From: Antedon mediterranea
Lineage: Eukaryota; Echinodermata; Crinoidea; Comatulida; Antedonidae
NCBI RefSeq assembly: GCF_964355755.1
Contig: NC_092675.1
Span: 22,024,912-22,088,911, forward strand
DNA: 64,000 nt
Direction: 5' to 3'
Shown: positions 22,001-64,000 of the stretch, one piece after another
Numbering within the stretch: position 1 is the first letter of the stretch
Layout: each line of letters begins with the position of its first letter
Translations under genes and position numbers: made by a program
The notes under the pieces: model-generated
What the model was told of the DNA's origin: nothing
The model's database searches: none
What the model saw: only the letters and a program-made list of their open reading frames with translations

Positions 22001-25000
22001 GTGATTACTCTTACCGCATTAAAATGTATTAACTATTGCTTGATTTTAGGAGATTTGTCATCGATGCCCTTCCAGTATGTGAGAGCACAGCATGTGTTGG
22101 CGTAATGACTGATCTTATTCGTTCTGAAGCAGTTGAACAAAAATTAATCGATACTTGGATAATGTCATTTGCATTCTTGAGACATCCATCTGTTGACATG
22201 GTCAATGACCTTACCGTACGTAGTGGCAAATTAACTTCAATACCCTGTACCATTTTTTTATTTCAAAAATCTAATTTGTTTTTGGCATTTAATTTTATGG
22301 AATATGGTTGGTTAGATGGCCATAGATAATTGACTATTTTAATTCAATATTAATTGATTTGTTGAATCATCTATTGATTTACATTTGTTTATATTTATTG
22401 GATCATCAACGTTTTGTCACTTATTTATAATTGTATTGTATCTACAGAACCTGTTAAGAGATAGAGATGATGACAAAGCCCTGTACCTTTCACTTTCTGC
22501 ATTGATTCATCAATTCTGTAGTGAAAATGAAAACTGTCTGGATTACACACCAGTACCAACTGCTCTTGAGTTCTTTGAACAAACACTTGGATTTGATTGT
22601 AATGCAAACACCGACGAGAAAAAATTCAAAGTACGTAATGAAAAACAATTAGTCAAATGATATACTAGCAATTCCACAATGTTGGAGCTGATACAGCAAA
22701 GCTCTTTAACCATATTAAAATATAAAAAGAAGAGGGAAATGCTTATTCACAAAGTCTTCACAATTCCAAGAATGGAGGAATTCCATGCTTCTGTTTTAGA
22801 TTAAATCAACTTTCAAGTCACAGCTGTTCATCTTCTTTTTTTCAATTTTATCTATAAAACTTTCTAATAATTTCTTAACTATTTGTATTTAGGTCATGCT
22901 AGCACTGAAGGCTCTTGGCAACTCTGGACAAGCTGTATCCGTCATCCCAACACTTGACCGATGCTTTGAACAGAAGTTAAACCCAATTGGTGTACGCATT
23001 GCAGCCATGGAAGCTCTTCGCCGCATTCCATGTGAAAAAGGAAATGTAAGTTTACTACTGAGTTTGGTGGTTACATGCTTCAATGGTCCTCACTTCAAAT
23101 CTTGACTTTAGTTCAGGACCTAGATTTGTCTATCATTAGGCCTACTTATGCCTAAAGTTCGGCTTAATTGGAAAGTGTTGATTCACCAACTCATTCCAGT
23201 TTTAAGTTATCTGAGAATACTTGTTCTATCACCAAACTATGGCCTATGTTGAACCGATATTATGGCTGTGGTTTGTAGTCTTAACCGCATAGCCACTGCC
23301 CTAGATTGGAATGTACTTTCTGATAGAAAAGAATATATAATACCTATATAACTATAGCAATATATGCTGTATTTTGTATACTGTACTGTATATAAACACA
23401 TTTCTTTTCTTTTCTTTAGCGTGACATCATGCTCAATATGTATAAAGACAAGAAAGAAGATAGTGAGATTAGAATTGAAGCATTCCGTGGTGCCATGAAA
23501 TGTCTTGATGCCAACATGATTCAAAAAGTTATAGAGCAAATGGAAATTGAGAAATCTGATCAAGGTAATTCAATATAAAATATCATCTTTAACTGCAATA
23601 TTTGTCATTAATTGTTGAAATTATTGTGAAGGACAGATTTTTTACACACATTCTATCTCAGTAACTTTTACAACAGCTGATAACATCTCTGTTTCCACAC
23701 TTATTTTTACATATACTGCCAGTTATATATAAATGTTATCTAACTGAGACGATTTAAATATTTTCTTTTAGTTGGTTCTTATGTATGGAGTTTCTTGAAG
23801 AACCTGAACACAACCTCAGACCCATTGAAACAGGATCATCGTGCAATTGTCCAAGAAAGTGGTGCACTCAAACGATTCCGCATGGACCCAAGAAAATTCT
23901 CCCGCAATATGGAACTTTCATTTTTCAATGGTTAGTAAAACTAATATTAATATACACTTATATGATTTTATATATTAAGATTCATACCAAAGTAGGTCTA
24001 TGTTCAATAATATCAATCATTCATTAACACCATTTTCCCCTGGAGCCACTCTTAACTCTGTTAAAGATCATAGGCATCTCTTTATTGTGATTAATGAAAT
24101 ATTGCTGTACTGTATGTCATTTTAAATGTTTAATTATGTAACCATGTAATATATTGGGATTTACAGATACTACTGGTTTTGGAGCCACCTTAGAGAGTGA
24201 TGTCATCTTCTCCTCCCAGTCCTTCATTCCTCGTCAAGTGTCTGTAGATTCTAAGATTGATCTCTTTGGATTCTCCATTGACCTTCTGGAGATTGGTGGC
24301 CGTGTAGAAGGAATTCAATACTTCCTTGAATCAATGGCTGGACCTGATGGTTTGTTAAAAGAAAATGGAATTATGGATCTTCTGATGGCTCCAGAAAGAC
24401 GTCAAAAGCGTGCAACCATTAGAGATAGCACATTGAACAATCTACTTGATAACGTGAGTACTATTAAGCAAAGCTCTAACATTGGAAGAATATTGATTTC
24501 AAAGCAATATTGTACATATAAATACATTAAATCCACCACTGGCTCCTACGGTTTTTCTCATTTGCAAGGAAACTATGGTGTTAAAACTGTGTATTTTAAA
24601 TCAGTTTAAATATGCTGGTCGTGACTTAAGCAAATGAGTTAATAAATTTCAGGCCTCTAATAATCCTTTCCTTTATTTTTCAGCTTGACATCCAGGCTGA
24701 AGACAAACTTCAGGGGTCTGTTTACTGGAAGATATTTGGAAATGAGCTTGGCTTTGCTGATTTGGCTAAATTGAAAGACTTCAATTTACAAAACCCATCC
24801 ACTGCTATGCTTCAGGTTAGTGTGTTTCTAAATTACTCATTTGTTTACTCATAATTGTGATTATCTTAATTGTTACCTTTACCATGAATGTCAACATGGC
24901 AGAAAACATGATTTGATAATCATGAAAACTTACCCAACAAAATTATTTGGAACCTGAATCCTCTTGTTTACAGAGGTGAGTATCATGCCCTTAGATCCTT

Positions 25001-28000
25001 ATGTAAATTGGTATAGTTATACTTTTAAATAAGAAAATTGTATCTATTATTAAGAATTTATAGATAAACGATATATTTCTTATTTGATTAATAGTTTGTA
25101 ATGGAGCTTGCAAAAGAGAAAGTCATGGAATACAGCAAGAACATGATGTTGTTGGAGATTACTACTTTTGTTCCATCTTGTGCTGGTGTTCCAATCAAGA
25201 TCTCTGTCAACGGCAGTGCCTCAGTCCAACTTAAGACTTCTGGAAAGATGGATGTCCGCCAATTAATGGTTGCCCCAAGAAGTTTAGATATTACTGGCAA
25301 GATTGAACCAAGGTAAATTTGATTAACAATTATTTACAGATAAACTAAAATTGTGAAAACATAGCTTCTTACCAAGAACACAATGAAATACACATTATAA
25401 TAAATTATTTATTTGTTTATATTATATTTGAATATTTGAAATAAAATGTCCATATACAGTGTATGTTAGCTAATGCTAAATGGACAATTTGTGAAATTGA
25501 AAATTGCTAATTTCGTTAATTTTGAACTTAGTGCAACTGTGGAGGTCAGTACCATTATGGAAACCGATTTTTTCGTTGCTCGAACCGGAGTTAAACACGT
25601 AGCTCGTGCTTACACCTCTACATCACTTGAGGGCAGTGTTGTTTTGGCCAACGGCAAGGCATTCAACCTTAATCTTAAGGTTCCAGAAAGACGTCTTAAC
25701 ATTGCAGATGTAAAGTAAGTTTGCTTAGATTTTGAAGAAGAAATTGTATTCATGATATCTAACTGTAGTTCTAGATTTATTAAACATAATTGGCGTGTAA
25801 GTGATCTCAAGTTTCTAAGTTCACTCTTAGATTTGGTCTGTAGGCCTACCTGGACCTGTAACCATAATAAGACTTAATTTTGAAGTCATTCAGACTTAAC
25901 TTTGAAGTCATTCAAAAGTATGGCTTTAAAGATACAAATTAGGAAGACATAAATTGATTTTTAGATTGTCAAACCAAACGTATATTATTTTCATTATTGC
26001 TTCAGATCAAATCTGTACTTGATCCGCATGGAAGAAGAGATGGAAATCCAAGGCAATCCAGATACCCAGATGGATTTGAACTTGTGTACTGGTTCAGATA
26101 TAGAGCAATATTTTGGTGTTGCTCTTTGTGCTGAGGCTAATTTCCCAAGCAGTATCATGAAAGTAAGTGTTAAGTATGTCCACTTTTTAGTGATAGTTAA
26201 GGGGTTAAAATGATTTTTTTACTGTAGTTTGTTTTGTACGTATTAAATTGATATCTTCACTAATTTATTATGTTGAAAGCTTCATCGCCATTTAAAAAAA
26301 TGAGGTCATAAGGTGCTACAAGATTAGTTACCATAATAGTGCAATAAAATGGATTTCTTCATATCAAATCATTAACCCTTATTTAGATATTACATGGTTG
26401 AAGATTAGATTTCTCTAAATTTACTGTATATATGTATTCTTAACCCACAGCCAAATGGCCCACGTTTCCCATTGTCTGGAAATGTTGATGTTGAAATCTA
26501 CTTGGAGAAGCGTGATGTATCTCTTACCGAATACAGAATGGAGGCTTCATACAAAAAGAAACAGGTATGGCAATTTATGTTACAAGAAAAAGAGCATTTT
26601 TACTTCTTTGGCATCATTTTCCTAATTATTATTTTTTATTATCTAATAAATGAAAGTACTATAAAATGTATACAAAACATTTTGAATTTCATTACAGACT
26701 GCAATTAATGACGAGGTGTTTGTTACTGATATTGTACATTTTATGGTTGGTACACCCGGTACAACCATTCTACGTACCTACTCACTTGACATGACATTAA
26801 ATCGTGCAGACAAGAACCTCACCATTGATATGGTAACACCAACCAAAACTGCCTCTCTTTCTGGTAAGTTGATACAGTGGAATTTCTATTATACATACTC
26901 CAAAGAAGGTAGTTAATACTCATAAATACTAAGTCACAGTTTAAAAAAAGATGTTTTAGTTACATTTTAGTTCATCTTTAATGTTAAATGTTACAGTATA
27001 GTGTGTAACACACATATTTTCATTGTTATACCCACTGTATGCCTATGCCTATATTTGCCACTGCATAAGGTACCTGTACCATTTTTTATTTTCAACTTCT
27101 TGTCATCAATAAAACTGATGAATTTGTATTCCTAATTGATTTAATTTTCTACTTACTTTAGCTGACTTGGTCAAAGATGAATTGATGCAGCAATTGGAAG
27201 TCCTTTTCTTTATTGATGATGCTCAAGTGATGAAGACTTTCTACAGCTTGAATATTCAACCAGACAAAGAAAACCAAAGAGTTAAATTCTCACCAATTGT
27301 CACCTTTGAATACAACTGTCAACAAGAAACCAAATCTTTCAGCCTTTCTGGAAGCGTTACCAAAGATTTAGGACAGAAACGCACCGAGATTGACCTAGTA
27401 TTTAACAAACCTTCTGAGAACCTTATCACTCTGTCAGGTATTATCATCATCATTTTTTATTCAAGTGGAATTTTTTTTTCACTCTTGTTCTTGTGTTCTC
27501 CATTTCTTTTTTAGTAATTTTTTCTACCAAAAATTATCTTATTTCATCCAATTTATTTCCATATTATAGACACCTTCTTGTCTAGTCTTCAAAGCTCTGA
27601 TAAAAGTTTCTTCTATTTCAATTTACTCATAAAAACAACTAATTCTTTCCCTCCTTAATCCTGATTAAATTACCAGTGCTATTTAAACATTTTAAAAAGT
27701 TTTCTATTTTGTTTTCTTTCAACTCATTAGGCAATGTACAGAAAAATATTGGTGAGGAAAAAACCTCGTATGTAACAGACTTGAATCTTGGTGGTCGCTA
27801 CATCACTGCTAGAATTGATGGAGAAATCGTCAAAAAGGGCAATAAATTGACTTCATCAGCTACTATTGAATATGTACCACGTAACCAAGACAGTCGTACC
27901 ATGAACTTTGCAATGAAGTTAACAAATAAAACAAATGATGTAGGTTTTTTTTTTATAAATTTTCAATTCCAACATTAAATGTATTTTGACACATATAATT

Positions 28001-31000
28001 CGTCAAAATAATTGTATGGATTAAATAAATTTTTACCTTTTGTAATCTGATTAAGAATTCTGGTAATTAAGTAAATTCAAATTTTATATCTAAAATATAA
28101 AACATATTTCTGCCCTTTCTTTAAGGGAATGTCTTTTATTTACATGAACTTTCCATTTTATCTCCAGGAATTCAGAGAATATGAGTTTATGACCAGTATG
28201 AGCTTCTCTCAGAATCCCAAATTTGACTTCCGCATCGACTCTAACACTAAATTCAATGCAATGCAGTCTGAAAGTTCTCACCGTCTCTGCTACAGTAATA
28301 TCGATTGTCAAGGAGATAAGTTCATTGCACTGGAGCACAACTTTGAACTAGCCAAGTCGGAAAACAATATTCAGAATGATCTTCAGCTTAATCTACGCAT
28401 CCCAGCCTTGGAAAAGAATTTCCAAATCACACAGTCTCTGACAAGAAACTTTGATAAACCATTGGATATCGTAATTGATCTTGAAGAGATTGTTTCAACT
28501 ACACTTCTTTTCCATACCAAACTTAACCTAAACTCTGAGGGAACCGAAACTTTACCAAGAGGATCATTGGTATTTGAGCTTTCCTGTCCATTGAGAGAAG
28601 GCAAATTTACGCAAACTTGGCAGAGAGTGTCTGAGAACAAAGTAACTGCTACCACAACTTTAAAAACAGAGGCTGATAAAGTTTCTTCAATGGCTATTAC
28701 TTGGGAGAAGATTGTAAAGGAAGATGATGACACTTACAAAAAGCATAGCATCGACATCGGCATTACCACACCTGATGAAACCGAGGTTGATATTGAATAC
28801 TACATTGAATTGACCAATGGGGAGATGACAACAGAGTTAACCACAAGAAAGAACCAAGAAAGAATTGTTTTCACAAAGTTGGAATTAGATGACTTGAGTG
28901 ATAGTCAAAAACTGAAAAAGGAACTAACCTTTACTTGCAATATTCCTGTCCTTGAATCATTGAAAGATGTTACTTGGGCGTCAGAATTTGAATACAAAAA
29001 CCAGACCTTGTTCAGCTTTGAGTCAACACTAACAGTCCTTCAGAATAAGTTTATCTTTAGTACCAACCTTCGCAATAAGACGACTGATGACAAAAAGCAT
29101 GGAGAATTTTCCATACGATTTGAAACACCAGAAAACCAATTTGAAGTATTTAGTTCTGCTAAACAACGTGGAAAGCTCACTTCTTTTGAAACATCTGTTA
29201 CTTTCACACCAGGAAATGAAGATGGTAAAACATTTGCTGTCAAACTGGACCACACCAATAAAACCAATGAGATGACAAAGGAACATCAAGTAATCTTTGC
29301 CCTAGAAGCTCCAGATCAGCGTGTTTCAAGTGATTTTATGTTTAGCTGTGCTGAGGGTGCTCTAACATCTGTGTTGTCTGTCACTTATGCTCCAGAAAAA
29401 ACCATCAGAAACAGCTTGGTTTTGAATACCAGAAACACAGAAACCGAAAAAGTACTAGACTTTGAGATGACTACTACAACACCAGAACGATCATTTGGCC
29501 TTGTATTTAACAATAGTATTGCAAGAAATAGAGTCAACCCACATCTTGAGATCTCTCTTACCACAGGCAATGTCTTCACAACTGATCTGGTCTATGAAAC
29601 TAAAAAGAATGGTGCCATCAAAGACATTGTTTGGATGTTTGATCTTCCTGAAGAAGAGAATGATGTCAAGTTGAGGACAATCTTGAGCAAGACTCCATCT
29701 GGTGTTGGCTTTGAATTTACTGTTACACAGGCTGATGCTGAGACAATGCAATTGAACTTTGACATGGTTCCAATGATTACTGAATCAGACAAACAATTTG
29801 ACATTGCTCTGAATATTGCTAATACCTATATTACTGGTTATGATGTGAATTTTGATCTTGTTTTTGCTCGGTTGAACAGAGGAGCAAGCAATTTGTTTGG
29901 TGCCAACATTACTGTTGATGGAGACCGGAAGGTAAGTTGTAGTCATTCTACAATTAGTTTGCAAATGAACATTAAACCCAGTGGTTTTGAATGATTTCCA
30001 ATTTACTATACCAGAAGATCAAAACAGATTACTGTAAAAAAAAGCTATACTTTAACATTTTTTATCAATTAAATAATTTACAAGAAATATTTCATTCATT
30101 CATATTATTTATTTATTCATTTTATTACAGATTGAGTTTGAGACAAGTATGAAAACACTTTATGCCAATCAATATCGTAAAAAGGTTCAATACCTATTCA
30201 AGAACAGGTTGCCACAGGTCACAGAAGCTCCACTTAGAAACATGATCTTCAATTTTACTTATGAAACTGAAAATGAGGATATTTCTCAATATATAAGTTT
30301 CTTGTACGGTGATCTTAGTGAAGATTATAAAATCTGTATGGAACACACCAACACTGACCAATACCTCGGTAAAAACCACAACATTCATAACGTTGTCCAC
30401 CTAAGACATCCATTTGTTGTTCCAAATATTCCTCAAGACATGGCAATGGATATCAGATCTGTGATTAATGCTATTGAGACCACCTCAACGGTAAATATGT
30501 ACTTTTTATTAGTTTAATTTTGATTTTGGAATGTGAATATTGTTTAGCACTTTTTCTACACAAATTCAAATTTAAATTGTTTAAATTTGTCAATTGAAAC
30601 ATTGCAAAAACGCTACACATTTTAAAAAGACAATTGAAAACATTTCAGTCAAACAGTTGTGTATATATATATAGTTGTTAAATGCATTCATGTTTTTATG
30701 TCAGGGTTAGCAAAATTAACTCAATACATTTTTTTATTTAATGTATTACTTTTAAATCCATAGATTATGTTTGTCAGAAATGATTTGACAACAACCGTCA
30801 CTACCCGATACAGAAACAAAACAAATGACAATAAAATTCATCACATGTCTGAAATTATTATCTCAAGACCTGATAAACATGTAAGTACTTTAAAACATAA
30901 GTTGTACTGTAGGAGGAAAAACTTTATTAGAAAGAGAATACTTATTATATTTAGAAGCTGAATTCGATATTCAATTTCTAAGCAATATTACTCTTCTTTT

Positions 31001-34000
31001 AGGATATCACAATTAAAGGTGTTGGCAAACTGTTCGATGGTAACACTATGTTCAGCACTGATATTGATGTAACATACAGCAGTGACAAAACAAAGGCCAT
31101 CAGTTTCAGTTTTGATTTAACTAACAACACAAATGTTGAATATACCAGTGATTACACCATGGGAATGGAAGTATTGCATTTGTTTAGTAACGTTGATGTA
31201 ACTTTAGCATGCTCTTTCACTAACAACACTGAACGTGGCAGTTTTGGATTGGAATCGCAAATTGCTATCGACGACGACTACATTCCAATTGCTTTTGAGG
31301 GAGAGTTCAACAAACTTTCACAGAAGTATGAGATCCATGTAAGAATTTATATTTTACTGTATTTTGTTTGTATTTTCTCGTATTACAATCTTGTTTACTT
31401 TACACAATTCTGTCAATAAAGATTGAAACCATATGCAAGATTGAAACCATAGGCAAGGTTGAAACAGATTTTCCACTTTTTTCATATAGATATTGAGCCA
31501 AATGAAAAGATGTCTTAAATATCTATTACACTAAAATCTTAATTTGGCTTATTTGTTGAAAACACAATATTTACTATGCTAGAATGAAAATTATGTGGAA
31601 TTTTTTTAATTTGTTTATAGACCAATGGACCAGTAAGAGAAATGTGGTTCCGAGGTCAGATCATCACTATTTCCGATGGTCATTACCGTCTGGATATGAC
31701 CAATCAATATGACGATAAAGTTATACCTAGTTACTTTGAATTGGACATGATCAGCAGACAGATTGAGTACAAACTTATGTTTGAAGGTGAGTTTTATTTT
31801 ATTGAGAATGAGCAAAGATCATACACAATCAATACAATTTTGCATGTCACATGTTAACACCAAAGGTTATGGAGCATCAATACATTATTAAGAGATTTCT
31901 TGCAAAAAATGATTATACCTTCCTATAACATCCAATATTTTTATTATTTGATATAACTTTATCTACTATTACATACTGTTTGAATTTTCAGAGGAAGGTG
32001 ATGATTACTGGAAGATAGTCATGGGTTACTATAATGACACTGCTCTTGAAGCTGACCTCACCAGAATGATCCAGGGACAACTTACAAATGATGCTCATAT
32101 GCGTGTTGTGCTCACCAGTCCAAAGGTTCTGAGAAACGAGATCCATTGGCGTCCAGAATGGATTGAAGAAATTAACGTAAGTGCTCTAGTTAATTTTTAG
32201 AAAAATGTATTATTTGTTTTATAAACATACATACTAATTTTTTCTGTTAATCTGCTATTTCCATCTAGAATTGAAAAGGCGACTCAAAATGTTAATAAAA
32301 GCCTGAGCGTACAGTAGTCACACAATCATTAAAATAATACATGGCATGTGATATGAAGTCAACCAATCAAATAGGTGTCTCATTAACATTGTACATTTTT
32401 ATAATTTAACACAATTTTTGTTTGTATAGGCTACCATTTCAAACAAAATCGAGAGGATTAACCGCTCTTTAGCTGGTAGATCCAGCGACATGAAGTCACG
32501 TATGGATAAGTTCAGACGTCGCTTGTATGATAGTATGATGGACTTTGTTCAAGAAAATGATGAATACAAGCAAATGTTAAATGAAATTAAACGGGATCTT
32601 GCAACAAAATTGTTTGTGTTTAAGAGTAAAATGTCAAGTCGTATCATACAAATAAATGTAAGCATATGAATATAAATAACACTTTCATTTTTGTTTTTTT
32701 CCTCATTTTTAATATGTTTCACATACATGTATTCATAATAGCATTTTTAATGTTGCATACAATTTAGTTCACAACTACCACTTTTGATCTTCTAACATTT
32801 TTCAAATGTTTACAGGAAAATATTAAAACAATGAAAGAAGATATTGCTCTCCAAATTATGCCATCACTTATGAAAATAAACAGTACTCTTCGCGAACTGA
32901 AGTCTGAGATTCAAGAGCTAAAGGAAGATCTCAAAATGAAAATACAATTGTGGACACAGGTGAGAAATATACATTGTAGTAGTTGATATGAAATGTATAA
33001 TGTAAATGTATTGTTGCAGACATCTAGCTATACCTCTCTAAATTGTTATCCATTTCTGTATAGAATGCCTTAGTCTCTCTTGAAAGTTACAAGGCACAGT
33101 TTGATGGACGTATGATTGGCGAGTTCAAGGCTTTTGGTGAATCGTATAAAATGAAGATGGCTAGCGATGTAGAATTGATCAAACAAGAATTGACAAATGC
33201 TACCATTGAAATAATGATTAGAGAGAAGATCCATTTTGAAACGTTGAAACTCAATATTCAAGCCAAAAAAGAAATAATCAGAGAAATGTTTGAAAACTTC
33301 ATTGTAAATATTAAAGGTAGCGTATCTTGCTTATTTTTTCTTTCCTGTTTTAGCAACATCGTCAGATTTCTTAAAATACAACCTAATTATTTTGTAGCCC
33401 ACTACTACATTTAGGGATAGACCTAGCCTAAACACAAGAAGTTTAAAAACACAGACAATTCTTAAAACCTAACTTTGCCACTAATGATTTAGAATTACCA
33501 ACAATAAACAATAATTATAAATAATAATAAATAAATAACAAATTGCTTACATTGAGATAACTAACTAAACTGATTGAGTTCTTGCTTTTATATTTCATAA
33601 GTAATAAATTGATGTTTGTTTTGTCCAGGTGCATTTAGAGAACGATTTGATGAGATGAAGTTGAACTTTGAAGATTCCACTTTCTACAATGACTTGATGA
33701 TCTTCGTAGAAGGTGTAAAGAACAATGAATTGGCTTCTGACATAATGGAAAGTGTTGCACAGTCTATGAATGAGATACAGAACTCAGAGGACCTCTTTTT
33801 GCTGAAGAATCTTTTGACCGAGCTTAGAGAATATAGAAGAGCACAAGCAAACAATACCAAAGTAAATAATCATTCAATTCAATAAATTGGGATTTCACTA
33901 AGCCTGGGCAAGACAGGGGACAGACAGCAACAGGTCAAATTAAGTAACAAAACATAGTTTTTAATTGTTTTAAACTAGTGTAATTACAAACAAGATTTAA

Positions 34001-37000
34001 GATTGACACTGACCAGAGCCTAGTTAGATTCTTTTAAATCTAAAAAATTTTAATATGCTGTGTTTCTTCGTCTGTAGAATTGTATTGCTACCTCACTGAT
34101 GGAAAAAGTAAAAGGATTCATTATTTTGAGATATGAAGATCTGAAAGAACAAATGTATGCAAAAGCACAGGAGTACAACAGCAGCACATACTTGCTAGAG
34201 AAACTTGACATCGAGAATGGTGAAATCATCTTCCTTCTTTTCCTTGAAGAAGAATGGCAAACTTTGACTCAATGGCCAGAGGTATACACACAAGGAGAAA
34301 AAATGGACGAATATGAAGGATACCAGTCATCTGTATATCGACGTCTAGGAGGCTACAAGAACAACCTTTTAGCAAAGGCAGCAGCTCAAAGGGAAATGCT
34401 CTTCAGTGACACGTATCTGCAGAGTCTTAAGGAACAGTGGGGTTCAGATTCTCTGAATGAGTATGTTGATCAGTACATACAGCAGTCTACTGAAGTATGG
34501 AGTTGGTTCTACATGGTCAAGAGACTTATCCAACCAAAGAACCTTATTCCACCATATCAAGGTATGTGCTATTTATCAAGGCATGCTGTTAAAATATAAT
34601 TATGAATGAATTAGTATTTTATCCAGAAAATGCTTTTAAATTCATAATTAATATACAGAATATTCTATAAATAAAGTTTTGTTTTATTAATATTCTTTGT
34701 CATTTCTGATGTTTTTTAGCATATGCCATGATGATGGGAACAGAACACTTCACCACCTTTGATAAATCGTACTTTGACTTCTCCAACAAATGCTCTTACA
34801 TATTGGCTAGTGATTTCATTGATGGAAACTTCAGTGTCATTGTGGATTATGACAGAGCAGAAAACACTGATTCCAGATCTATTGTTGTCAAAGTCGATGA
34901 TCAGACCATTGAAATCACTTCAGATTGGCAGGTATGTGTCTTTCTAGAAATGTACCTTTAAATAGCATAACCTTTTGTTAAAAGTAATAATTGATATATT
35001 GTACAAAATACGTATACTAAATGTATAATTTGATGCATACACTACCCCTTTTAATTTGTGTTCTTTAGCTAGTAAATAACATTATATATTTATTTAATTT
35101 ATATATATATATTGTTTTCAGGTCAAGAAGAATGATCGTGTAATTGATCTACCAATCCAGTTCGAGAAGACCACCATTATTCGTGACAACGGCATCATCC
35201 GCGTTGACAACACCAATGGCGTGACCGTTCGTTGCAACTTGTACAGTGAATACTGTACTGTGAACGTAACTGGCTGGTATTTTGGCAAGACCCGTGGACT
35301 TTTCGGTACCTACAATTATGAGAAGAATGATGACATGACAAAATCTAATGGACGCGTCACCGACAATGTTCCCGAGTTTGCTCGTAGTTGGCAGGTCGGC
35401 CGAAAATGCAACGATCACGATAATGATGCTAAACGTTGCGATGCCAATCCAAAGTTGGAGAGCAACCAAAGGTGTGCTGAGCTTTTCTTAGACTTCAGAT
35501 CTGAGTTTAGTCGCTGCTTTACAGAGGTATGTTATTTTAATGTTAATTTAATGTTTCTATTTAAATATTTCTCATCTTATTCTTGAACATATAATAGTTT
35601 ATAATAGTGTAGATACAAGCTATTCAATAGCTTTATAATTACTCTTTGAAATATCTTGCACTTCTTCATTTTAAAGTTTTATCTTTCTCATTTCTGAAAT
35701 ACATTGTTTTTTAATATCATATTTCCACATTTTAACAAAAATAATAACTCTGAAACAATCATTTTATTAATATTTATTTTATTTCATTCAGGTGGATCAA
35801 AACATGTTTTACAAAATGTGCGTCAACCAGAAGTGTGGTTTGTCGCTCAGTCATGACATTGCATCAGCTATATGTAATGTTTCAAATGCCTACCGTGAGC
35901 AGTGCAGACAACAGGAAGTTATGTTGAAGCCTCTTAGGGAATGTGGTATGTGAATTATATTATTTTTTTCAAAGATTATTGATCTGGTGCTCAGATGAGA
36001 TGCACATGCATTCTTAATTAGAACTCAGAACTTATGTTATTTAACCAAAAGAAAGATTCAATTTAATATGTTTTTATGGTAAATGTTTATGTTTAAAAAC
36101 AATTTCTCTTCCACCTTAGTCATGTGCAAAGGTAGTGAAAACCAAGACTTTTATAAAAATGAAAGGGAACGTCTTGAAGAAGATGATGATAAACCACAGT
36201 CAGCTGATATCATCTTTGTTGTTGAAGAGAAACTATGTGCCCAAGAAGTTGTCAAGAGGCTACCAGATCTTGCAGATTCTTTGAACACTGAACTTAAAAA
36301 GAAAGGTAAGCGGTGAACTTATATGAGTCACACCAATTTCGTTCAGTGTAGATAACTAAGTCAAAGACACGTTGGATTAATGGTAGAAAATACAGATTCT
36401 AATCACATTCTGGATCTGGTGTAATAACCCAATACTGTTAGTTAAACATATAATGTAAACTTTCTATCAATGTTAATTGCTATTTTTTTTCCCACAGGTA
36501 TGAAGGAAAATCGCTTTGGTCTTGTTGGATTTGGTGGTCCAAATATCCATGATATACCTCACATGCACACAATTGATCATCAAATTTTCAACCATCAGCG
36601 CAAGCTACAGCTTGGAATTGACAGTTTGGAGTTTGGAGAAGGTGGTAACAATGACACATTTAAAGCACTTGAGAAGGCTGCTAACTATCCATTCCGTGCT
36701 GGTGTTGCCAAGAACATCATCCTAATCTCTTGTTCACAATGCAAGGACAGTAAGGTAATATTTGAGAATGTGTTAATATTTCTTTTTTTCTCTAAAAATA
36801 AAGATGTTTTTACTTGACCAACACACGTAAATTTAAACATTTGAGCTTATGATAATCAGTTGGAATTAGGTCTATGAGGTTATTAAAAAAATAAAAAAGT
36901 GTCGAACATCTCATCCACATTCTTTGTTCAAATGCACACCAGTTAACCATATCTACCAATTGTAGAAAAGGCCCTCTTGTATACAATTTATATGTCTGTT

Positions 37001-53012: not shown

Positions 53013-53403
53013 AGATAAAAAAGTTTCCAAAGTGAGTTAACAAAGGGATGAAAGGATGCTTTAAATGCCACAGTAGGAGCAAATGGAATATTAAAGGTAT
53101 CTAAGTAATGAAAACAAGCAGATCAACATTTAGATTGAACTTAAATATCTGGAAGAATAAAATGAAAAACCAAGCCAAACTGAAAACAGTTACAATAACA
53201 GTTTTAAGTATGAGCGATATTCGTTTAATAAAGAGAATAAATTAGATTTCAGAGAGAGATATAAATTGTTTTCCATGATTTACAAATTTTGAAAATATAG
53301 GATGCCTAAATGCGTTGTTTTTTTCTTCCTGAAGTAAGGTAGAAATTATGAAAAGTGCATAGACATAATTGTTTTCTACAGTATGTTAAAAACCTGTTTA
53401 AAT

Positions 53404-54725
53404 AGTACAGAGATTTTTTGGCAAATTTACCCAAAATATGGACTTTTTAAAATGCAGTTATTATTCACTACCATTGCAATACATGTCCGTATATTGCCAT
53501 ATTACATCATATGGTGCCATAGAACCACTTTATGTTGAGAAATAAAATCATCCAAATTTGCCCATTTTTCAACAAATTCCCTGTACTATATTACTGGGAT
53601 TTTTGGCAAATTCACCCAAAATATGAACTTTTTAACTTAAATGCAGTTATTATGCACTAACATTTCAATACATGTCCATATATTGCCGTATTACATCATA
53701 TGGTGCCATAGAACCACTTTATATCGAGAAATAAAATCATCCAAATTTGCCTATTTTTCGACAAAATCCCTGTACTATAGTACAGGGATTTTTTTGCAAA
53801 TTCACCCAAAATATGAACTTTTTAAAATGCAGTTATTATTCACTAACATTGCAATACATGTCCATATATTGCCGTATTACATCATATGGTGCCATAGAAC
53901 CACTTTATGTTGAGAAATAAAATCATCCAAATTTACCTATTTTTCGACAAAATCCCTGTGCAGGGATTTTGTGTAAATTTACCCAAAATATGGACTTTTT
54001 AAAATGCAGTTATTATTCACTAACATTGCAATACATGTCCGTATATTGCCGTATTACATCATATGGTGCCATAGAATCACTTTATATTGAGAAATAAAAT
54101 CATTCAAATTTACGTATTTATTGACAAAATCCCTGTACTATAGTAAAGGGATTTTTTTGCAAATTCTCCCAAAATATGAATTTTTAAAATGCAGTTATTA
54201 TTCACTAATATTGCAATACATGTCCGTATATTGCCATATTACATCATATGGTGCCACAGAACCACTTTAAGTTGCGAAAGAAAATGGTACAATTTGCCCA
54301 TTTTGCCACAAAATTCCTGTACTATATAGTACTGGGATTTTTCTGCAAATTCAACAAAAAAAAGGAACTTTAAAATGCAGTTATTATGCACTAAAGCTTG
54401 GTTCCCACTAGAACGTAACGCAAGGACGTAAACGCAACGCAAGCGTTTTAACCAATCACAAGCGAATAAGCCATCGCTTGTGATTGGTCAATTCACTTGC
54501 GTTACGTCCTTGTGTTGCGTCGCTAGTGGGAACCACGCTTAACATTACAATACATGTCCGTATATTGCTGTATTACACCATTATGGTGCCATAGAACCAT
54601 TTTATGTTGAGAAATAAAATTATCCAAATTTGACCAATTTTCGATAAAATTCCTGTACTAATAGTACAGGAATTTTGTGCAAATTCACCCACTATATGGA
54701 ATTTTGTGCAAATTCACCCACAATA
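53404..54725. repeat. Tandem satellite, ~185-bp unit, six to seven copies
   Basis: ATGCAGTTATTAT(T/G)CACTA occurs at about 53452, 53642, 53827, 54005, 54188 and 54376, and each unit also has ATTACATCATATGGTGCCAT(A). Junctions carry a small palindrome, CCCTGTACTATAGTACAGGG or decayed forms. The sixth unit is split by a MITE; a broken seventh follows. No coding frame is kept. Confidence 0.85.
54395..54539. mobile_element. Palindromic MITE inserted into the 185-bp satellite
   Basis: The element starts AGCTTGGTTCCCACTAG and ends CTAGTGGGAACCACGCT, with TAA on both sides (54392-54394, 54540-54542). The other satellite units read ...CACTAACATT..., which is the empty site; here they read CACTAA-element-TAACATT. 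This confirms a 3-bp TAA duplication and exact element borders. Confidence 0.8.
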
Positions 54726-55302: not shown

Positions 55303-56492
55303 TTATTCAGAAATGATTTCGCATTTAGATACAGCTCGGCCGTATACGTTTCTCTTGCACTCGCATTCTTTCATGTTTAAGTCGCTCTCTAGTGGTCTTT
55401 CAACTTGGTTACGGATACGCTTGGAACACAAGGTTATAACATCCTCGACTTCTCGTTGCAGTTGGTCAAGACTGAATACAGCGCCTATTATTAATACAAT
55501 TAACATATTAATTATACATATAAGCACATTGTAGAATTTGGATTATTGTTGTTGCAGTAAACAAAATCGTAAAGCTAAATTTCAAAACCTTTAATAGTAT
55601 TGTAAAAAGTGGTTTGTTATTTTAATTATTTTTTTTCTTTTAAACAACATTTTAGAAAAAGCAGTGGTATAAACTATGTTTATTGCATTAATTAATTAAA
55701 AGAGTATAATTACCTTTAGAGGCCTTGGCTACTTTAGAATAACTTCCTCTTGGCATATCTAACTTGGTTGAGATGTCTTTCTTACTCTTTGATGCCATGA
55801 TAGCCTTTCCATCCCAATTGATTCCAACGATGTTCTTGCTTGATTTCTCCTGCTTCAAGGTATCATAGGATGAGATTACATTCAGAGTGATGCCGTTGTC
55901 TGCCAGGAGTGATTGCATGGTCAACTGTTCTTCAATCTCAGCCTGAAAAGTATAATTTGTATAAGCCATAATTGTATAATTCTATTTCTTTTTTGGAATT
56001 TCTTGAATAAAACAATTTATCTTGAATAATAATAATAAAAATAAAAATAAATATGTAAATTTATTTGTAAACTTACATCAGTTTCACTGTCAGAAACCAG
56101 AACAAAGATCTTAGTAGCTTCTGCACGAAGTTCCAACTCTGTAGCGAATTCAATAGCTTTAAAACCATCAGTTTCATAATCACCAAAGAATTCTAGGCTT
56201 CGGGCTCCATTGATAAATTCGGAAGAGCTGGCAAAGACCTTTCCGTTGATTGTGTGCTGGTGTGGGCCTTCATGTATTTCTTCTCCTCCAAATGCAACAA
56301 GTGCATATCTGTTATCATTGATGTTGGCTTTACCTAAGGTTTTTTCAGTTGCCTCCACAAGTTGAGTCAACTCTTCAGCAATGTCATGGTCTTCTTCCAT
56401 TTTCTTGTTCTCCGAGACAATAAAGACAATATCAGCGGTGTTTTCGTTGGTGATCTCCCAGACTTCTCCGATGACCTTATCACCACATTTAT
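55303..56492 (-). CDS. (-) LLTP vWA-like domain and C-terminus
   Basis: Exons 56492-56077, 55942-55714 and 55484-55303. The vWA-like strands are A-D-I-V-F-I-V, Y-A-L-V-A-F-G-G and I-F-V-L-V-S-D. The D-x-S-x-S metal motif is replaced by S-E-N-K-K. The tail has C-E-C-K and a last cysteine ten residues on, then I-I-S-E-stop. The last exon was placed by phase: the acceptor at 55485-55486 leaves the frame G-A-V-F-S-L-D open to the TAA at 55303-55305. Confidence 0.87.
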
Positions 56493-59400
56493 CTACATAA
56501 AAAAGTAAATATATAATACAGCAACTAAAAAAATTACTGCTCAAGGTACAGTATAATGGATTGAGAAAAAAAAATTGCATCAACTTGATTAGAAAGCATA
56601 TATTAAAAAGGAAGACTCACTGCATTGCTGGACATGCTCAATTTGTTTTCCATGGCTTCTGCACATTTCAACATATGAGGTGGTTGCATTACAGATGGCT
56701 TTACTGCTTTCTGGGTAGCACTTAGTTTCTTCCTCACAGAGTGATTTAAATTCAGCAACGTTGATAGTGTTAAAGCATTCAGCCAGAGGTGAAGCAGGAT
56801 CGTTGAAATAGAATTCACAATCTGTACTTGGTTCTTCAGAGCAGTCTCTTGGTCCCCGATTAAATATTTCATCTTTGCCTGGTACAATCTTGCATTGTTT
56901 GTTTCCACTTATTTCAAATGCGTTGGCAAATTCAGTCAATGTCTGAGCAACAGAACCATCTGGTTTGCGCATGTCAAAGTGCTTTTCATCATTAAGGGTT
57001 CCAAGAAGTCCTAGGGTCTTGTTGTAGTACCATCGGCTGGCATTGAAGAGGCACATTTGGTATAACGAATCGCATTTGATATCAATACCATATGTAGTTG
57101 AAATCTGTACCCATTGTCCATTTCTAACGATTGTCACTTCTTTGCCAGATGACTGGTATGGAAGCTCCTGGATCTCTTCTCTGCCATTAATTTGAATCTT
57201 GTTCTCGCCATTGAGTTTGATGCTCATTTCCTGGAGTACAAGGGTAATGGAGTTTTGAGTGCTGATGATGGTGAAGTTTCGGTCAACGAAATCACTTGCC
57301 AATACGTATGAACACTCCTCTCCTTTGTATCCTGGGAACTCGTATCTCTTCTGGTCGAATGTGTATACATGAAGTGGTCCAAAAATCATAGCAGTGCCTA
57401 TGAAAACATAAATTTAATGCGACATGAAGAACAACCTAATATTAATTGTGTTTTAATACAGTAAACAATACAATTATTATTACTACAATATTATAAAAAT
57501 ATAATTTAAAAAATTAAACACTTACTTTGGAATTGGGGAATGAAGTCTCTAATTGTTGGGATCTTTGGCAATTGAGGCAGCTGAGGATACTCAAAATTGC
57601 CGATCATGTCTTCCAAGTATTTGATTGCTTTTTTAATGTACGCAATAATTTCTGGTAGGTTTTCTTTGATGTAATCAGGTGTAAGGTCTTTGATACGAGA
57701 TGCCAATTCTTCCAATCTTTCAGTGATTTCTGGAATTTTCTCCTTAATCTTTTCGATCAATTCAAGTGCCTTGACAATCATTTCATCGAACTTTTCATAC
57801 ATATTACTTATAAGCTTGTTAAGATGTTCTTTCCAGTTTGGAAGCTCAGCCTTGATTATATCAACTATTTTTTTGTAGTTTTCTTTTAAATCTTTCTGCC
57901 ATTTCTCAAGTTTGGTTTTGACAACTTTAATAATCTCATCAATCTTCTTCTCAACACGAGGCTTTAGCTCATAGTATTTGTCTTTAAGATCTTCATATAC
58001 GGCAACTGCATCTTCAGAAAGCTGACTACATTTTTCAACAACCTGTTCCTGAAGAATCTTCATTCCCTCAATGGTGATATTGTAAGCTCTCTTTATGTTT
58101 TGTCTTACATTAGGGGCTTCACGTAAAAAGATGGCGTATGCATCTTTACATTCTTGAACAGCTATGGGATAATACTCTTCAACTTTGACCTTCAATTCAT
58201 CATATTTCAGTTCAGCTTTCTTTTTAATCTCATCATATACTTCTTTGGTTTCAGCAATTACTTGTTCAACCTTTTCTTTCAACTCTTCATATTTGTTTTC
58301 TGCCTTTACCTTCCATATTTCATACTTGTCCATAGCTTGGTCACGTAGGATCTCAACCTGTTCACGTACTTGTGTGTATTTCTCACGGATGAATGGTTCT
58401 TGTTCTTTCACCCATTCAACAACAATTGGATAAGTCTCGTTGATGTATTCACGGGTTATAATGTAGTACTCGACAACCTGGTTAATGACTTCTTCAGTCT
58501 TGTTTTGTACCATATCAACCATTTCCCATTGTTTGTTGGTAAGTGTCGGTGGTTGATAGAAGCTGGTGTAGTTAAATGGATGAGAAATGTTCATGGCAAA
58601 GCTGCTTTCTCCTACTTGTCCAATACTATTGAGGCTATAGCCGACTGCAGAGCGTGACATGTTCAAACTGTAGTTGATTGCAGAACGTGTGAGGTTAAGT
58701 GTGAGTTGTGGAGTTAGACGGATCAGAACAGGAATCTGTTCCATCTTCATTTGAGCGGCATCAATGGCACTATCCCAAACACGACGTGGAATTTGATCAA
58801 TTTCATAGTATCTGTAGATCCATCCTAAAAAATAAAATATAAATTTAATTGATTAATAGAAGGATAGTTTAATTATTAGTTGCTAAATAATTTTTTTTTA
58901 AATGTATTACAAAATATATAATAGTAAAGCGTTAATACCTGGCATAGTGTTGTTGAGGTACTCAATGCATGCTTCTACAAACTCTCTAGTCATTCTGATA
59001 ACTTCCTGAGCAGATCTGATAGCTCTAGAATTTATAGCATATGTAGCATTTAAATATTCACGTGTCTTCTCCACAAACTTGCGGGTAAGTTCTAAAACTC
59101 TGTTATTTTCAAGAATTTCCCATGTCTTCTTTGATACCTCATCCTTCATTTCCTCAAGTCTGTTGACAAGTGGCTGGATTCTGTCTTGATTGAACTCTTC
59201 AAGTTTGTTGATGATTGGTTGTACTTTATCCTCAATGTATTGTCGGGCATCTTCTCTCAGTTTCATGATGTTTTCTTCGGTGAGGTTTTCTTCATAGAAT
59301 TCCTTAACCTTAGTTGTCAGCTCATCAACCTTGACCTTCAGTTTCTCAGCAACCTCTTCAACATATTCCATGGTTTCCCTGACAGATGTGTTGAGTGGTT

Positions 59401-62400
59401 GAGTTTTAAACTTCTCTATAAGATCAGTCAATTTTTCTTTCAGCTCAATAGTCTGGTTGCGTACATTGTCATAGTAGTTACGGACTTCTATCTTCAATTT
59501 TTCATACAATTCTGGAAGTTTGACTCGAAGTTCATCGTATTTCTCAATTGCCTTGACAGAATATTCATCATACAGCTCAACTGCCTTAATTTTGTACTCC
59601 TCATACTTCTCAATTGTCAATTCTCTGTATTCTACAAACTTTACCTTGGCATCATCATATAACTCCATTGCTTTTTCACGCACCTGTTCGACAAGTTTGG
59701 TAAAGTTTTTGATGGCTTCCTTCACAAGCTACAAAATAGATTAAAAAAATTTAACCTACATTGAAATATTACTTGAATATAAAAAATAAGTTTAAAAACA
59801 TATTATAAAATGTGAGATCGTGGGAAAGAAACTATATTTATTGTCAGACTACAGTACAATTAAAACCAACTTACTTCATTGGCATTGCGGCCAGTGTACT
59901 TCAAAGCATACTTGTTGATAACATGTGTCTCATTCAATGAGATGATGACGATCTCATCAATAATCTTGTCTAAAGCTTCATAAGCCTTGACCTTGTAGAT
60001 GTCAAGTTTCACCATAGCCTCAGCATATTTTTCTTTGTATATAGCTACAAGTTCTTCAACTATTGTGTAGACTGTGCGGTTTAGGTATTTCAGAGTGAGT
60101 TTGTTAATAGCGTTAGATTCGTTCTTGGACATTACAACAACCTGTTCGACCATATCATCATATTTCACCTTGGCTTCTTCCATGACAATTTCAAGTTTCT
60201 CCATTATTTTTTCGAGGATGGCTTCAACTTCAACTAGAGCAGAATCTGACAGATTTCGAAGTTCAGATGGTAGTTTGTCTACAAACACCCTGACATTTTC
60301 TACGAAGACCTCTCTGTCAAAATCGTTGTACATTTCAATTGCCTTATCCTTGTAATCAGCATAGTCAACTTTGGCTTGATTATAAACCTCAATGGATTTC
60401 TCAGTTATTTCTGTAATGAGTTTTACAAGCTTCTCCGTGACTTCGACGACAACCTAAAGACAGTGTAGAAAAATACATTTTTGAGAAAATTCCTATCATA
60501 AATTTCAAAAGTGAAACGTCATTTTAATCACACTAAATAATTTAAGATGACTGGAGACCAACAAAGATGTAACTAGTTTATCTAGTAAAAAAGGTATCTT
60601 TGAAAATTATTTAGGAAAAAAGATAAAATGCTCACAGTGTTGATGTTGCTGCCCATGTATTTGATTACAAATTTGTTGATAGCATTCTCGTCTTCAAGTG
60701 AAATACGGATTATTTCTTCAATAGCTTTTGCCATGAATATTTCTGCCTTTTCTCTGTATGCTTCAAGTTTCACCAGAAGTGCTTTGTATTGGATCTTGGA
60801 GATGCTGAGAATGTCTTGAGCGATTTCATAGATGGTGTTATTGAAAAGTCTGAGGGTAAACCTGTTGACAGTATTGGATTTGTCTTGGGACATCTTGGTA
60901 ATGCGATCAATTGCTTTCTCAAGAGCCTTGGTAACTTGTTTTTTTGTTTTCTCAGTAACATCTTTGACCAACTTTTTGACAAATTCAATTGCAACCTTTG
61001 TCTTCTCTATAACCTTTTCAGATAATTCTGTAAACTTAAGAGAAAGTTTTTCTGCAATCTCTCTGACAAATAATTCAAAGGCTTCTCGGTCTGACTCATC
61101 ATACATCCTCTTCAATTCGGCCATGGTTTCTTTCAGTTCAGCAAACTTCTCTTTCAATTGAACCTTGTAAACCTCAATCTTCTCTTCAACTTTAACTTTC
61201 AGGGAAGCTGTGAAGTCTGTGATCTTCTTTTTCAATACCTTCAGAGTTTTCTCTACCTTTGCCCATTTAAGTGCAGCCTTTTCCATGAATTTTTTAACAG
61301 AAACTTTTGAAATTTCAAGTATCTCATAAATGGATTTGTTAAAATACCTGAAAAACAAAATTAAAGTAATAACTATAAATAATATTGTTATTTAAAGAAA
61401 CAATATGTTATTATTACTTACGAATGGTTTTTGACATCCTAAGAATCTTTTTACTAAAGTACATTAATAATACAGTACTTCTTTATGAAATGTAATATAC
61501 ATCATAATAAACCATTGGCATTTTAATTTTTAGTACACATTCAATAAGAGCCCACTCTTTGAAACTACAGTCATTGACAAATCGATTTGTCAAGATATAC
61601 AGAGTATTCTGGTACTCTGATAGAGAAACTATAAAATAAATAATTGCTTACTTCATGGTAAGACGGTTGATTGGATGTTCTTTGTTCTTGATGATTTCTT
61701 CGATCTTTACAACTAGTTCATCAAACTTGATTTTAAGCTCATCATATTTTTCAATTGCTTTCACCTTCATGTCATTGTATCTTACTTTAAGCTCTTCATA
61801 TTTTGCTTTGAGGTCTGCCTTCAATTGGTTGTATTCCTCTACTGTTCTCAGCCACAGTGCATCATAGTCATATTCTTTAGCTTTCCTCCACTGCTCAACA
61901 GCATATTCCTTTGACTTGACAATAGCTTTTTCGATTTCTTCACGAATAAACTCCATATATTCAGCTGTAATAACATCTAGGTTTATGTAAGTGTCATTAA
62001 TCTTTCTTATTTGGTCATTCATGTAGATTCTTGTGACATTAACAACATGCTGAGTGTAGTTCCTGGTCTGGTTGACAGCTGTCATTGTGAGGTTGACAGT
62101 AGTGGCAATGAGTTTGTTGGTAAGGTTGAAAGCACCATCAATCAAAGCTGGGTTCCAGCTGAAGTTGCTGTAGATGACATTGCTCTCGTTCAACATCAGA
62201 AGCCATTGTAAGTCTGTTACATTCAATCTATCAGCCTAAGTATAATAAAATCAAATTATTAACATATATTAATAATGACTTTTTATTTGGCAATATTTAA
62301 TTCCATGTTAACATGTTATGTCTATTGATGATTATTTTACATAGAGGTTTCTCATAACCTGAAATAATAATTAGTACATAGATTTCCTAATTCTATAATA

Positions 62401-64000
62401 AAGTAGTAACACATTAAACCATGTGATATGCTACTTACAGCTGTCATGTGATACACAGACATGTTCATCAACTTTCCATCATCGCTGATCTTTCCAAGGA
62501 AGCACAATGATCCATGATTTGGTGATGCTACTTTGAAATGTACAGATTGGATGTCACTGGTTTGAAGAAGAGCAATTGAAGCAACAGGGCTGGAAATATT
62601 TGCTGACATTCTCTGTTGGTAGACAGTCCATTTTGTCATATGTACACTGCTGTTTGTGGTAATGTTGATCATTCTTGTGGCAACAGTAAAGTTGTGGCCA
62701 GTTTCAATTTGACTGAAGTTTCTCCAGGAACTGAAGTTGAAAAGATCCATCACAGTTTCTAGAGTACTGTTGACAACTGGAGTTGTGAAGTTGTATGACA
62801 TTTTTGCATTCACGTTTGAGAAATTGAAGAGAGAAGTGAAATTCTTCAAAGTGAAACCAGAACTGGTAGTCAGATTGGCCAATTTGCTTGTGACATTGTT
62901 TCTCATTGTACCATTGATCAGTCTGAATTTGAGAATGCTACCGTTGAAGTTATTGAAAGCCAATCCACTGAAATGGTCGAACCTTGCAATGTCAGAAGAC
63001 AAGTTGACGGTTGCATTGACATTGATAAGATCGAAGTTCAACAAGCCAGTAAAGTTGTTAAATTCTACAGCACTGATGAAGGAAGCGTTTGTGAATGGAG
63101 TTGCAATTCTGTAGTCCATGGTTGTATTAATTCTATTGAATTTGAACATACATAAAAAGTCATTCATTTCAATTCCGTCAGTCAAGTTGACTGTAACAAG
63201 TGGACTGGTCAGGTTGTATTGTCTGGTAAAGTTAATTCTTGAGAATTTAAAGAGTCGTGACATGTCTTGGATAGCAAATCTTTCTAGACTCGTAAGGTTG
63301 ACATATTTGTTGGTAAAGTTGAACTTGCTTGATGTGTTGAAACGCTCAAATTTCAAGAACTCAACAGATTTGGTCATTGTCAGGCCTATTTCTTGGTTGA
63401 CAGCAGCAAATGGAGTGGTAAGGTTGTTTTGGGTATCCATGCAAACACGATCAAACTTGAATGGCGCTCGGAAGTCATGGAGACCACCACGGGTAAGAGA
63501 AGTGAATGTTCCTAGTTTTGATGTTGTGTTGTAAAAAACTGAAGCATTAGCCTTGTTGAAATCAAAGAGTTTACGGAAGTCAAAAAGCATAAATTCTGCT
63601 CTACCGGTGCTGTTCATGAACGAACATTTATCCCAAACGATGCTGGAAACTCCATTGACCTTATCAAAGTTGAAAATGTTTCTGAAGTTGACAAAATCTG
63701 TTATAGCTTCAGTAGATACAACAAACACAGGAAGAGATACATTCATGGTCACAGTGGTATTCATGCGGTTGAATTTAAAGAAGCCTTCAGAGCCAGTTCT
63801 ACTCCAGCCAGCAAAGGTTGTTACATTGCCAAGACGAGAAGTAATGTTATTTGAGGTAGTTGCTCTGGCTTCTGGGAATGAACATAGTGATTTGAAATCT
63901 TTAAGAATAATTACACTTTCAGAGGATGTATTAATCAGTGGTGTGATGATTCTTTGTTTCATGGTTCCATTCACCTTTTTAAACTTGAAGATTTTTTCAA
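55303..64000 (-). CDS. Second large lipid transfer protein, 3' part (10 exons, about 2,375 aa in window, 5' end outside)
   Basis: Exons, 5' to 3' on the minus strand: >64000-62439, 62235-61652, 61347-60636, 60453-59875, 59728-58939, 58824-57526, 57397-56621, 56492-56077, 55942-55714, 55484-55303. Phases match at all nine junctions. Domain order is a 35-residue repeat array, a ~1,300-residue helical region with 11-residue repeats, VWD, Cys-rich module, vWA-like domain and C-x-C tail ending at TAA. The last three modules align with the (+) LLTP, so this is a paralogue, but its middle is very different. The lipid transfer domain and start must lie beyond 64000. It is probably a secreted lipoprotein-like protein; its specific role is unknown. 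Confidence 0.9.
56621..57397 (-). CDS. (-) LLTP VWD domain and Cys-rich module
   Basis: The exon opens with T-F-D-Q-K-R-Y-E-F and C-S-Y-V-L-A-S-D-F-V-D, then has W-Y-Y-N-K-T-L-G-L-L-G-T-L-N, the VWD core. It continues with C-x-E-E-x-x-K-C-Y and further cysteines, matching the (+) gene at 34720-35945. In the (+) gene this is split over three exons; here it is a single exon, so introns were lost or gained after duplication. Confidence 0.92.
57526..62235 (-). CDS. (-) LLTP helical exons: apolipoprotein-like 11-residue repeats, partly duplicated
   Basis: Exons 62235-61652, 61347-60636, 60453-59875, 59728-58939 and 58824-57526 encode about 1,320 residues rich in K and E. Units of 11 residues starting with Y follow one another (Y-E-E-Y-K-I-K-A-V-E-L, then Y-D-E-Y-S-V-K-A-I-E-K, then Y-D-E-L-R-V-K-L-P-E-L), with occasional 7- or 18-residue steps. 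The exon at 60453-59875 repeats the content of 61347-60636, including D-R-E-x-F and the motif N-x-(I/V)-N-(K/R)-x-x-L-(K/R). Such hendecads form lipid-surface helices in exchangeable apolipoproteins, perilipins and synucleins. Confidence 0.88.
62439..64000 (-). CDS. (-) LLTP first visible exon: tandem 35-residue sequon repeats
   Basis: The reading frame is open from the window edge to the GTAAGT donor at 62438. The protein consists of consecutive 35-residue units (two are 36), of the form (F/L)-x-F at positions 1-3, N-x-(T/S) at 7 and again at 13, then often P or K at 17. I count 13 units plus a degenerate last one. More than 30 N-glycosylation sequons are visible by eye. Beta-strand alternation suggests each unit is one or two strands. 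The array continues beyond the window. Confidence 0.9.

Follow-up and report, generated by a model that had tools for sequence, protein, structure and literature searches.

A 43-unit, sequon-rich array of 35-residue repeats in a candidate apoB/apolipophorin-family lipid transfer protein of the crinoid Antedon mediterranea

The 64,000-nucleotide stretch of Antedon mediterranea DNA analyzed here (the window) breaks off inside a giant exon whose translation carries tandem 35-residue units, 43 in the whole exon by HMM profile and 13 of them inside the window. We consider it probable (about 0.68) that the gene encodes a large lipid transfer protein (LLTP) of the apoB/apolipophorin family in which the β region following DUF1081 has turned into a regular array of approximately 43 β-hairpins, forming a sugar-coated belt. 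The family assignment, the array, the outward facing of its sequons, the preference of its charged residues for one antiparallel register and its age can be read from the analyses below; contact with lipid, occupancy of the glycan sites, secretion and the role of the protein would follow from that reading.

The gene model was assembled by chaining predicted exons by splice-site score, and its 5' end and possibly small exons are absent from it. Within the model, Vitellogenin_N, the open β-sheet and DUF1081 are followed by about 700 sequon-rich residues, the 43 units, amphipathic helices, VWD and a VWA-like region, which places the repeats between DUF1081 and the helical region. Vitellogenin_N (PF01347) was matched at 1.5e-28 on one exon and 3.9e-38 on joined exons, and DUF1081 reached 31.3 bits on joined exons against a cut-off of 25 bits, single exons remaining below it. 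The combination of Vitellogenin_N, DUF1081 and VWD is described as the APO architecture, with DUF1081 exclusive to APO (Avarre and others 2007, PMC1783640). All three marks are present, and by these domain matches the repeat gene is an apoB/apolipophorin-family LLTP, which bears out the lipid transfer identity proposed in the sequence-only reading. Its best solved relative is apoB-100 (9.3e-25 and 1e-19 against the PDB), which in a search with one exon scored above lipovitellin and MTP. A charged, helical-looking stretch (L003:497-871, minus strand) seemingly breaks the Pfam open β-sheet match. The features of the gene that lie in the window are as follows.

62439-64000, minus strand: portion of the giant repeat exon inside the window (C6:22087350-22092649, 5,300 bp in full), from splice sites and a single open frame.
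62622-63992, minus strand: 13 tandem units, two of them of 36 residues, from HMM matches and lag-35 autocorrelation.
62439-62621, minus strand: non-repeat tail of the repeat exon, reaching the GTAAGT donor, from splice site and HMM.
61652-62235, minus strand: predicted next exon, a sequon-rich linker and then charged helical sequence, from the gene model.
60636-61347, minus strand: predicted amphipathic helix exon, from the gene model; Apolipoprotein A1/A4/E 0.0011, below its cut-off.
59875-60453, minus strand: predicted helical exon with 63-residue periodicity, from the gene model and autocorrelation.
58939-59728, minus strand: predicted amphipathic helix exon, from the gene model; Apolipoprotein 1.4e-6, below its cut-off.
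57526-58824, minus strand: predicted amphipathic helix exon, from the gene model; Apolipoprotein 1.9e-7 and ApoLp-III 2.9e-6, both below cut-off.
56621-57397, minus strand: C-terminal VWD domain (PF00094, 3.8e-15) with a C8-like stretch (C8 0.00011, its 22.8 bits short of the 23.7-bit cut-off).
55688-56492, minus strand: VWA-like C-terminal region in two exons (56077-56492 and 55688-55942); VWA 0.003, below cut-off; gene end uncertain.

The helical exons between 57526 and 61347 (minus strand), one of which has the 63-residue periodicity, may make up another repeat system of this protein.

The repeat exon ends at 62439 with its GTAAGT donor immediately after, contains no stop, and runs approximately 3.7 kb past the window edge, the array itself extending about 3.1 kb beyond it. 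The sequence-only reading had counted at least 13 consecutive units of 35 residues, two of them of 36, and had predicted that the array continues; we find exactly 11 units of 35 and two of 36 inside the window and, over the whole exon, 39 of 42 unit spacings of exactly 35 residues and three of 36. Unit starts were placed by hand from matches to a profile seeded with 28 in-register ("clean") units, so that 15 of the 43 matched units lie outside the seed. Together the units span residues 211-1713 of the stop-to-stop frame, with a summed profile score of 1,045.9 bits, the 28 seed units matching by construction. The lowest-scoring units fall in the window part, where 6 of 13 score between 0.9 and 6.3 bits; the window thus holds the more divergent end of the array, and the register is nonetheless kept there. 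In autocorrelation of the window part alone, the self-comparison that had been named as a possible refutation, lag 35 was highest and none of 500 composition shuffles reached its value; across all 43 units the two highest lags were 70 and 35, and again none of 500 shuffles reached the top value. Shuffles of composition, of columns and in the autocorrelation rule out chance composition as the source of the repeat and sequon pattern.

Conservation in the clean units is concentrated in a few columns, namely F4 (27 of 28), N21 (25), S24 (23), S17 (20) and S35 (19); our numbering begins one residue before that of the sequence-only reading, whose positions 7, 13 and 17 correspond to 8, 14 and 18. 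The opening (F/L)-x-F and the frequent P/K that it described hold for the window, where they occur in 11 and 9 of 13 units (P/K at position 18), and are less general overall, at 33 and 19 of 43.

The array is old. Residue identity between units, compared over lags 1-8, is 0.35-0.36 at even lags and 0.22-0.24 at odd lags, which indicates descent from a 70-residue cassette of two units. Synonymous differences between units are saturated (0.73-0.76), nonsynonymous differences amount to 0.42-0.54, and the closest pair among the clean units has only 70% of bases in common, so that the array must be ancient; the first 27 spacings nevertheless show no length change at a synonymous difference of about 0.75, and the register has therefore been held since. 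The same figures speak against a pseudogene or an artefact of assembling tandem duplications. Assembly errors are common in tandem arrays and the gene model is itself a prediction from sequence, but a single open frame across 5,300 bp, nonsynonymous change below synonymous change and the low likeness of even the closest pair make this account very unlikely. Among the best-scoring candidates, a 70-residue query hit the genome 21 times, always within the repeat exon, and a full-array query returned only itself; the array was found at one locus among the candidates scored.

With E values up to 10 allowed, no sequence in the PDB matched the repeats, a profile search included, and apoB was not returned by that profile. 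When 14 cassettes were compared with Pfam, no family was matched by more than one member; five families appeared, the best being MxiM at 0.0041, and with one member each and scores below the cut-off where shown these were taken as chance. Weak matches of the repeat exon itself (DUF7246 at 0.0037, G3P_antiterm at 0.046), under the cut-off where one is given, were treated likewise.

The 43 units contain 114 sequons, a mean of 2.65 per unit. Position 21 is the commonest column (31), followed by 8 (23) and 14 (15), whereas in the 13 window units position 14 leads (9) and 8 and 21 are equal (7 each). The two fixed sites reported from the window sequence, at what are here positions 8 and 14, therefore describe between roughly one half and two thirds of its units, and the main site of the array, position 21, was missed. 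The exon as a whole has 126 sequons in 1,750 residues against 47.2 +/- 5.7 in shuffles of the same composition, and the clean units have 77 against 50.7 +/- 3.3 when residues are shuffled within columns (maximum 63 in 1,000). Along the gene, exons ahead of the DUF1081 exon have 0-2.5 sequons per 100 residues. Density is 2.3-7.4 over the stretch that begins with the DUF1081 exon and leads up to the repeat exon, which itself has 7.2; the exon after it has 4.6 and later exons 0-2.3. The partial model totals 208 sequons in 5,147 residues. Successive units carry a sequon at the same column more often than expected (34 versus 28.6, P 0.013).

Could these sequons be an unused by-product of outward strand positions rich in Asn, Ser and Thr? 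The composition of the exon (Asn 12.4%, Ser 12.9%, Thr 9.1%) speaks for it, and in the 28 clean units positions 3, 21 and 32 show no significant co-occurrence of Asn and Ser/Thr beyond column make-up; at position 21, Asn is near-fixed (25 of 28), as is the Ser/Thr that completes the sequon (23 of 28). We regard this explanation as improbable, since the two parts of the sequon co-occur in excess of column make-up at positions 8, 12, 14, 16 and 25, with P < 0.01 at each, as well as in the within-column total.

As for facing, with strands assumed at positions 7-17 and 20-30, and the inward and outward sets taken from hydropathy, 63 of 79 outward Asn in the clean units lie within sequons and 0 of 13 inward Asn do (Fisher P 3e-8), with 14 of 45 in the turn and bulge columns. 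Because the sets come from hydropathy, the low count of inward Asn is partly built into the test, but the fraction of them in sequons is not. The expectation that sequons keep a fixed phase and share one face of the strands is thus borne out for the predicted β structure.

In the arrangement that we propose, each 35-residue unit would form one hairpin of two strands of about 15 residues, at roughly positions 3-17 and 20-34, and neighboring strands would run antiparallel and unstaggered in a fixed register in which facing positions add up to 37, whether the two strands belong to one unit or to successive units. The hydrophobic face would lie on lipid as in the belt of apoB, and the other would carry the sequons in rows along the belt approximately 1 nm apart, as calculated from standard strand spacing. 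The belt would have grown long ago by duplication of the two-hairpin cassette, its length and register being kept since. A very regular sheet would be prone to aggregation, which dense glycans could counter, so that the putative sugar coat would keep a long, exposed amphipathic sheet of a presumably secreted protein soluble and unaggregated, whether as part of a lipoprotein or of a glycoprotein coat. Some details fit a lipid belt poorly: the inward columns 13, 17 and 24 are mostly Asn/His, Ser and Ser, respectively, which is odd for a lipid face, and the residues at positions 35-1 are un-turn-like.

A different fold could also account for the strict unit length. The array could be a parallel β-solenoid rod of about 43 coils and roughly 20 nm, with a hydrophobic core and with ladders of stacked Phe, Asn/His and Ser, inserted into the LLTP as a structural element rather than as a lipid belt, and the near-invariant F4, N21, S24, S17 and S35 columns have a ladder-like appearance. 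The structure prediction that the sequence-only reading had called for returned β strands but two topologies. AlphaFold was given window units only. Model 1 was built from four window units, 9-12, in a 3-row alignment completed by units 1-4 and 5-8 (pLDDT 82.6, pTM 0.70, range over the five models 82.6 to 37.5). Its strands are about 15 residues long and, as judged by its structural matches, of which BtuB was first at Z 12.7, form an antiparallel sheet. Matches to apoB-100 were found at Z 11.7 (9bde_A, 128 residues, rmsd 3.9) and Z 10.9 (9coo_A, 135 aligned, rmsd 4.7); in the latter, residues 2-140 of the model superpose on apoB 2831-2968 (138 residues), and the former spans a longer segment of 163 residues (3539-3701). 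Foldseek paired model 1 with apoB (9e9r, 9ea7) at probability 0.96 and E 0.15. Model 2 (units 7-12, with units 1-6 as second alignment row; 6 units, 2 rows; pLDDT 79.3, pTM 0.73, spread 79.3 to 51.7) is a β-solenoid, again as judged by its matches, with SufB/SufD first at Z 13.6 over 184/212 residues and pectate-lyase-type solenoids also present; apoB was absent among the 50 matches listed. Neither model had a Foldseek match in the PDB that reached E 0.001. A further alignment (A1), whose overlapping rows were largely the same units again, was set aside for folding. The two models thus disagree on the topology.

Covariation of charge between units favors the antiparallel sheet. A hairpin centered between positions 18 and 19 brings together positions that sum to 37, the only one of nine sums tried at which mean hydropathy is mirror-symmetric (r 0.62-0.64); sum 37 was used first in the covariation test, and the register scan was done afterwards. 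Over the 43 units its joint z was -4.41, the strongest of 13 joint registers, the other 12 ranging from -1.29 to 1.26; within units z was -2.17, and from one unit to the next -3.92, the strongest of 64 pairings. In the clean units the unit-to-next pairing was again the strongest (-2.90), and the joint z was -3.46, next to -1.84 for sum 34 and -1.91 for sum 41; other pairings approached -2. At sum 37 opposite charges met in 40 pairs (25.9 expected) and like charges in 23 (34.1 expected), the other odd sums tested giving a net z of -1.19 to 1.37; sum 35 was likewise enriched in opposite pairs (24 versus 17.7, P 0.03). These unit-permutation z values are inflated, as the units are kin by descent (same-type units two apart have a charge z of +2.94 over the 43 units). 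Random column matching keeps the relatedness of units and is the safer null; it reached the observed value with a printed P of 0.0000 (20,000 trials) in the full set of 43 units and of 0.0012 in the 28 clean ones. Since a control pairing of the same column three units apart gave a z of -1.93, close to the -1.94 of the within-unit register, we place weight on the joint scan and the column-matching null. No clear signal came from covariation in volume or in hydropathy (|z| never above 1.7), and a test of steric avoidance between neighboring sequons lent the hairpin register no support (6 versus 6.3 expected within units, 4 versus 4.7 to the next).

Stacked in parallel on the next unit, by contrast, the units show little charge complementarity (z 0.01 for 28 units, -1.13 for 43). 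A solenoid would not be expected to place position b beside 37-b of the next unit, and this pairing therefore favors the antiparallel belt, although most of its charged pairs fall in columns 3-6 and 31-34; in a solenoid, moreover, the recurrence of sequons at the same column would set glycans about 0.48 nm apart. We thus consider the parallel rod unlikely, though not negligible in view of model 2. A separate question is the role of the protein, whatever its fold. It could be an egg-coat or extracellular-matrix glycoprotein whose rows of sugars are recognized as ligands by lectins of the sperm or the matrix. The chief vitelline-coat protein by abundance in Ciona, an ascidian, is reported to be apoB-like and to bind a 70-kDa sperm protein (PMC9265791), and by that analogy the egg-coat reading would be a serious rival to a circulating lipoprotein. 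The VWD and weak VWA-like C-terminus would suit it, and lipid transport could be left to the conventional LLTP adjoining the gene. Against it stand the lipid-transfer N-terminus and DUF1081, which are still present, and the fact that ascidians are not echinoderms; on balance we hold this role possible but the less probable one.

The belt reading draws on what is known of apoB-100, which has Vitellogenin_N, the open β-sheet and DUF1081 in common with the repeat gene and in which an amphipathic β-sheet belt, lying after those domains, surrounds the lipid core according to a review (PMC12419007). The secretion of apoB is reported to depend in part on N-glycosylation (PMC3856013), and fly apolipophorin to be degraded upon abnormal glycosylation (PMC11749247). 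Human apoB, however, is described as having 19 potential N-sites, 16 of them occupied, in 4,536 residues (PMC3856013), against the 208 sequons of our partial model. Insect apolipophorin II/I and crustacean apolipocrustacein are likewise described with an LLT module, DUF1081 and a C-terminal VWD (PMC1783640), and no comparable repeat is mentioned in that description. The resemblance of model 1 to bacterial outer-membrane β-barrels (BtuB, TamA; Z up to 12.7) lies in a long antiparallel amphipathic meander and is one of arrangement only, with 4 to 11% identity among the matches listed.

To our knowledge, the sequence of the apoB β-belt is only loosely periodic. The earlier statement that apoB has no such strict repeat agrees with the profile search of PDB sequences, but hairpin length is paralleled in the apoB stretch aligned with model 1. 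Searches of the openly accessible literature on such a repeat or on a glycan-rich LLTP brought up no paper, among those listed, that names such a repeat, and within their reach the repeat form of an APO-family LLTP is undescribed.

The conventional LLTP gene next to the repeat gene (19415-36814 of the window, plus strand) is convergent with it and similar in its Vitellogenin_N, open β-sheet, VWD and weak VWA matches. It differs in that its long open frames are divided among several exons, and in sequon density, which is 0 to 1.4 per 100 residues in three exons tested; three exons tested show no significant periodicity, and in six pieces searched with the 35-residue profile nothing passed the inclusion threshold. 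Between the two genes lies a tandem array with a period of about 186 bp (53402-54394; 5.4 copies, 87% matches). Vitellogenin_N matches (12 in total) fall, when grouped manually, at no fewer than five loci, all on contig C6, at 1.49, 10.9, 16.23, 22.05 and 22.10 Mb; near another of these is a tandem YTHTKST-like open frame (C6:10895687-10896295), which is probably a simple-repeat tract. Other markers in the genome suit an echinoderm: a bindin-core match (2.3e-28, its matched frame containing one TAA), a single let-7 locus and, as a weak negative, no mir-2 match among the 60 candidates scored of 131,623, bindin not being known outside echinoderms nor mir-2 outside protostomes. Cellulose_synt gave no match where three control searches did, which argues against a tunicate, and a COX1 search aimed at the mitochondrial code was also empty.

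In its wider form, as a periodic echinoderm apoB-family belt of about 40 nm (86 strands) with a lipid face and a lattice of more than 100 N-glycans, in a lipoprotein or an egg coat, we would put the proposal at even odds. The β-belt of apoB is central to LDL, and its relative in this crinoid shows an explicit unit. With 43 natural repeats exposing length, register, inward and outward positions and sequon phase, the array may reveal the plan of lipid-holding sheets, and it offers a consensus unit from which a belt could be built or its structure solved. It could likewise provide a test of how glycans influence lipoprotein assembly, and may tie lipoprotein genes to the egg coats of deuterostomes.
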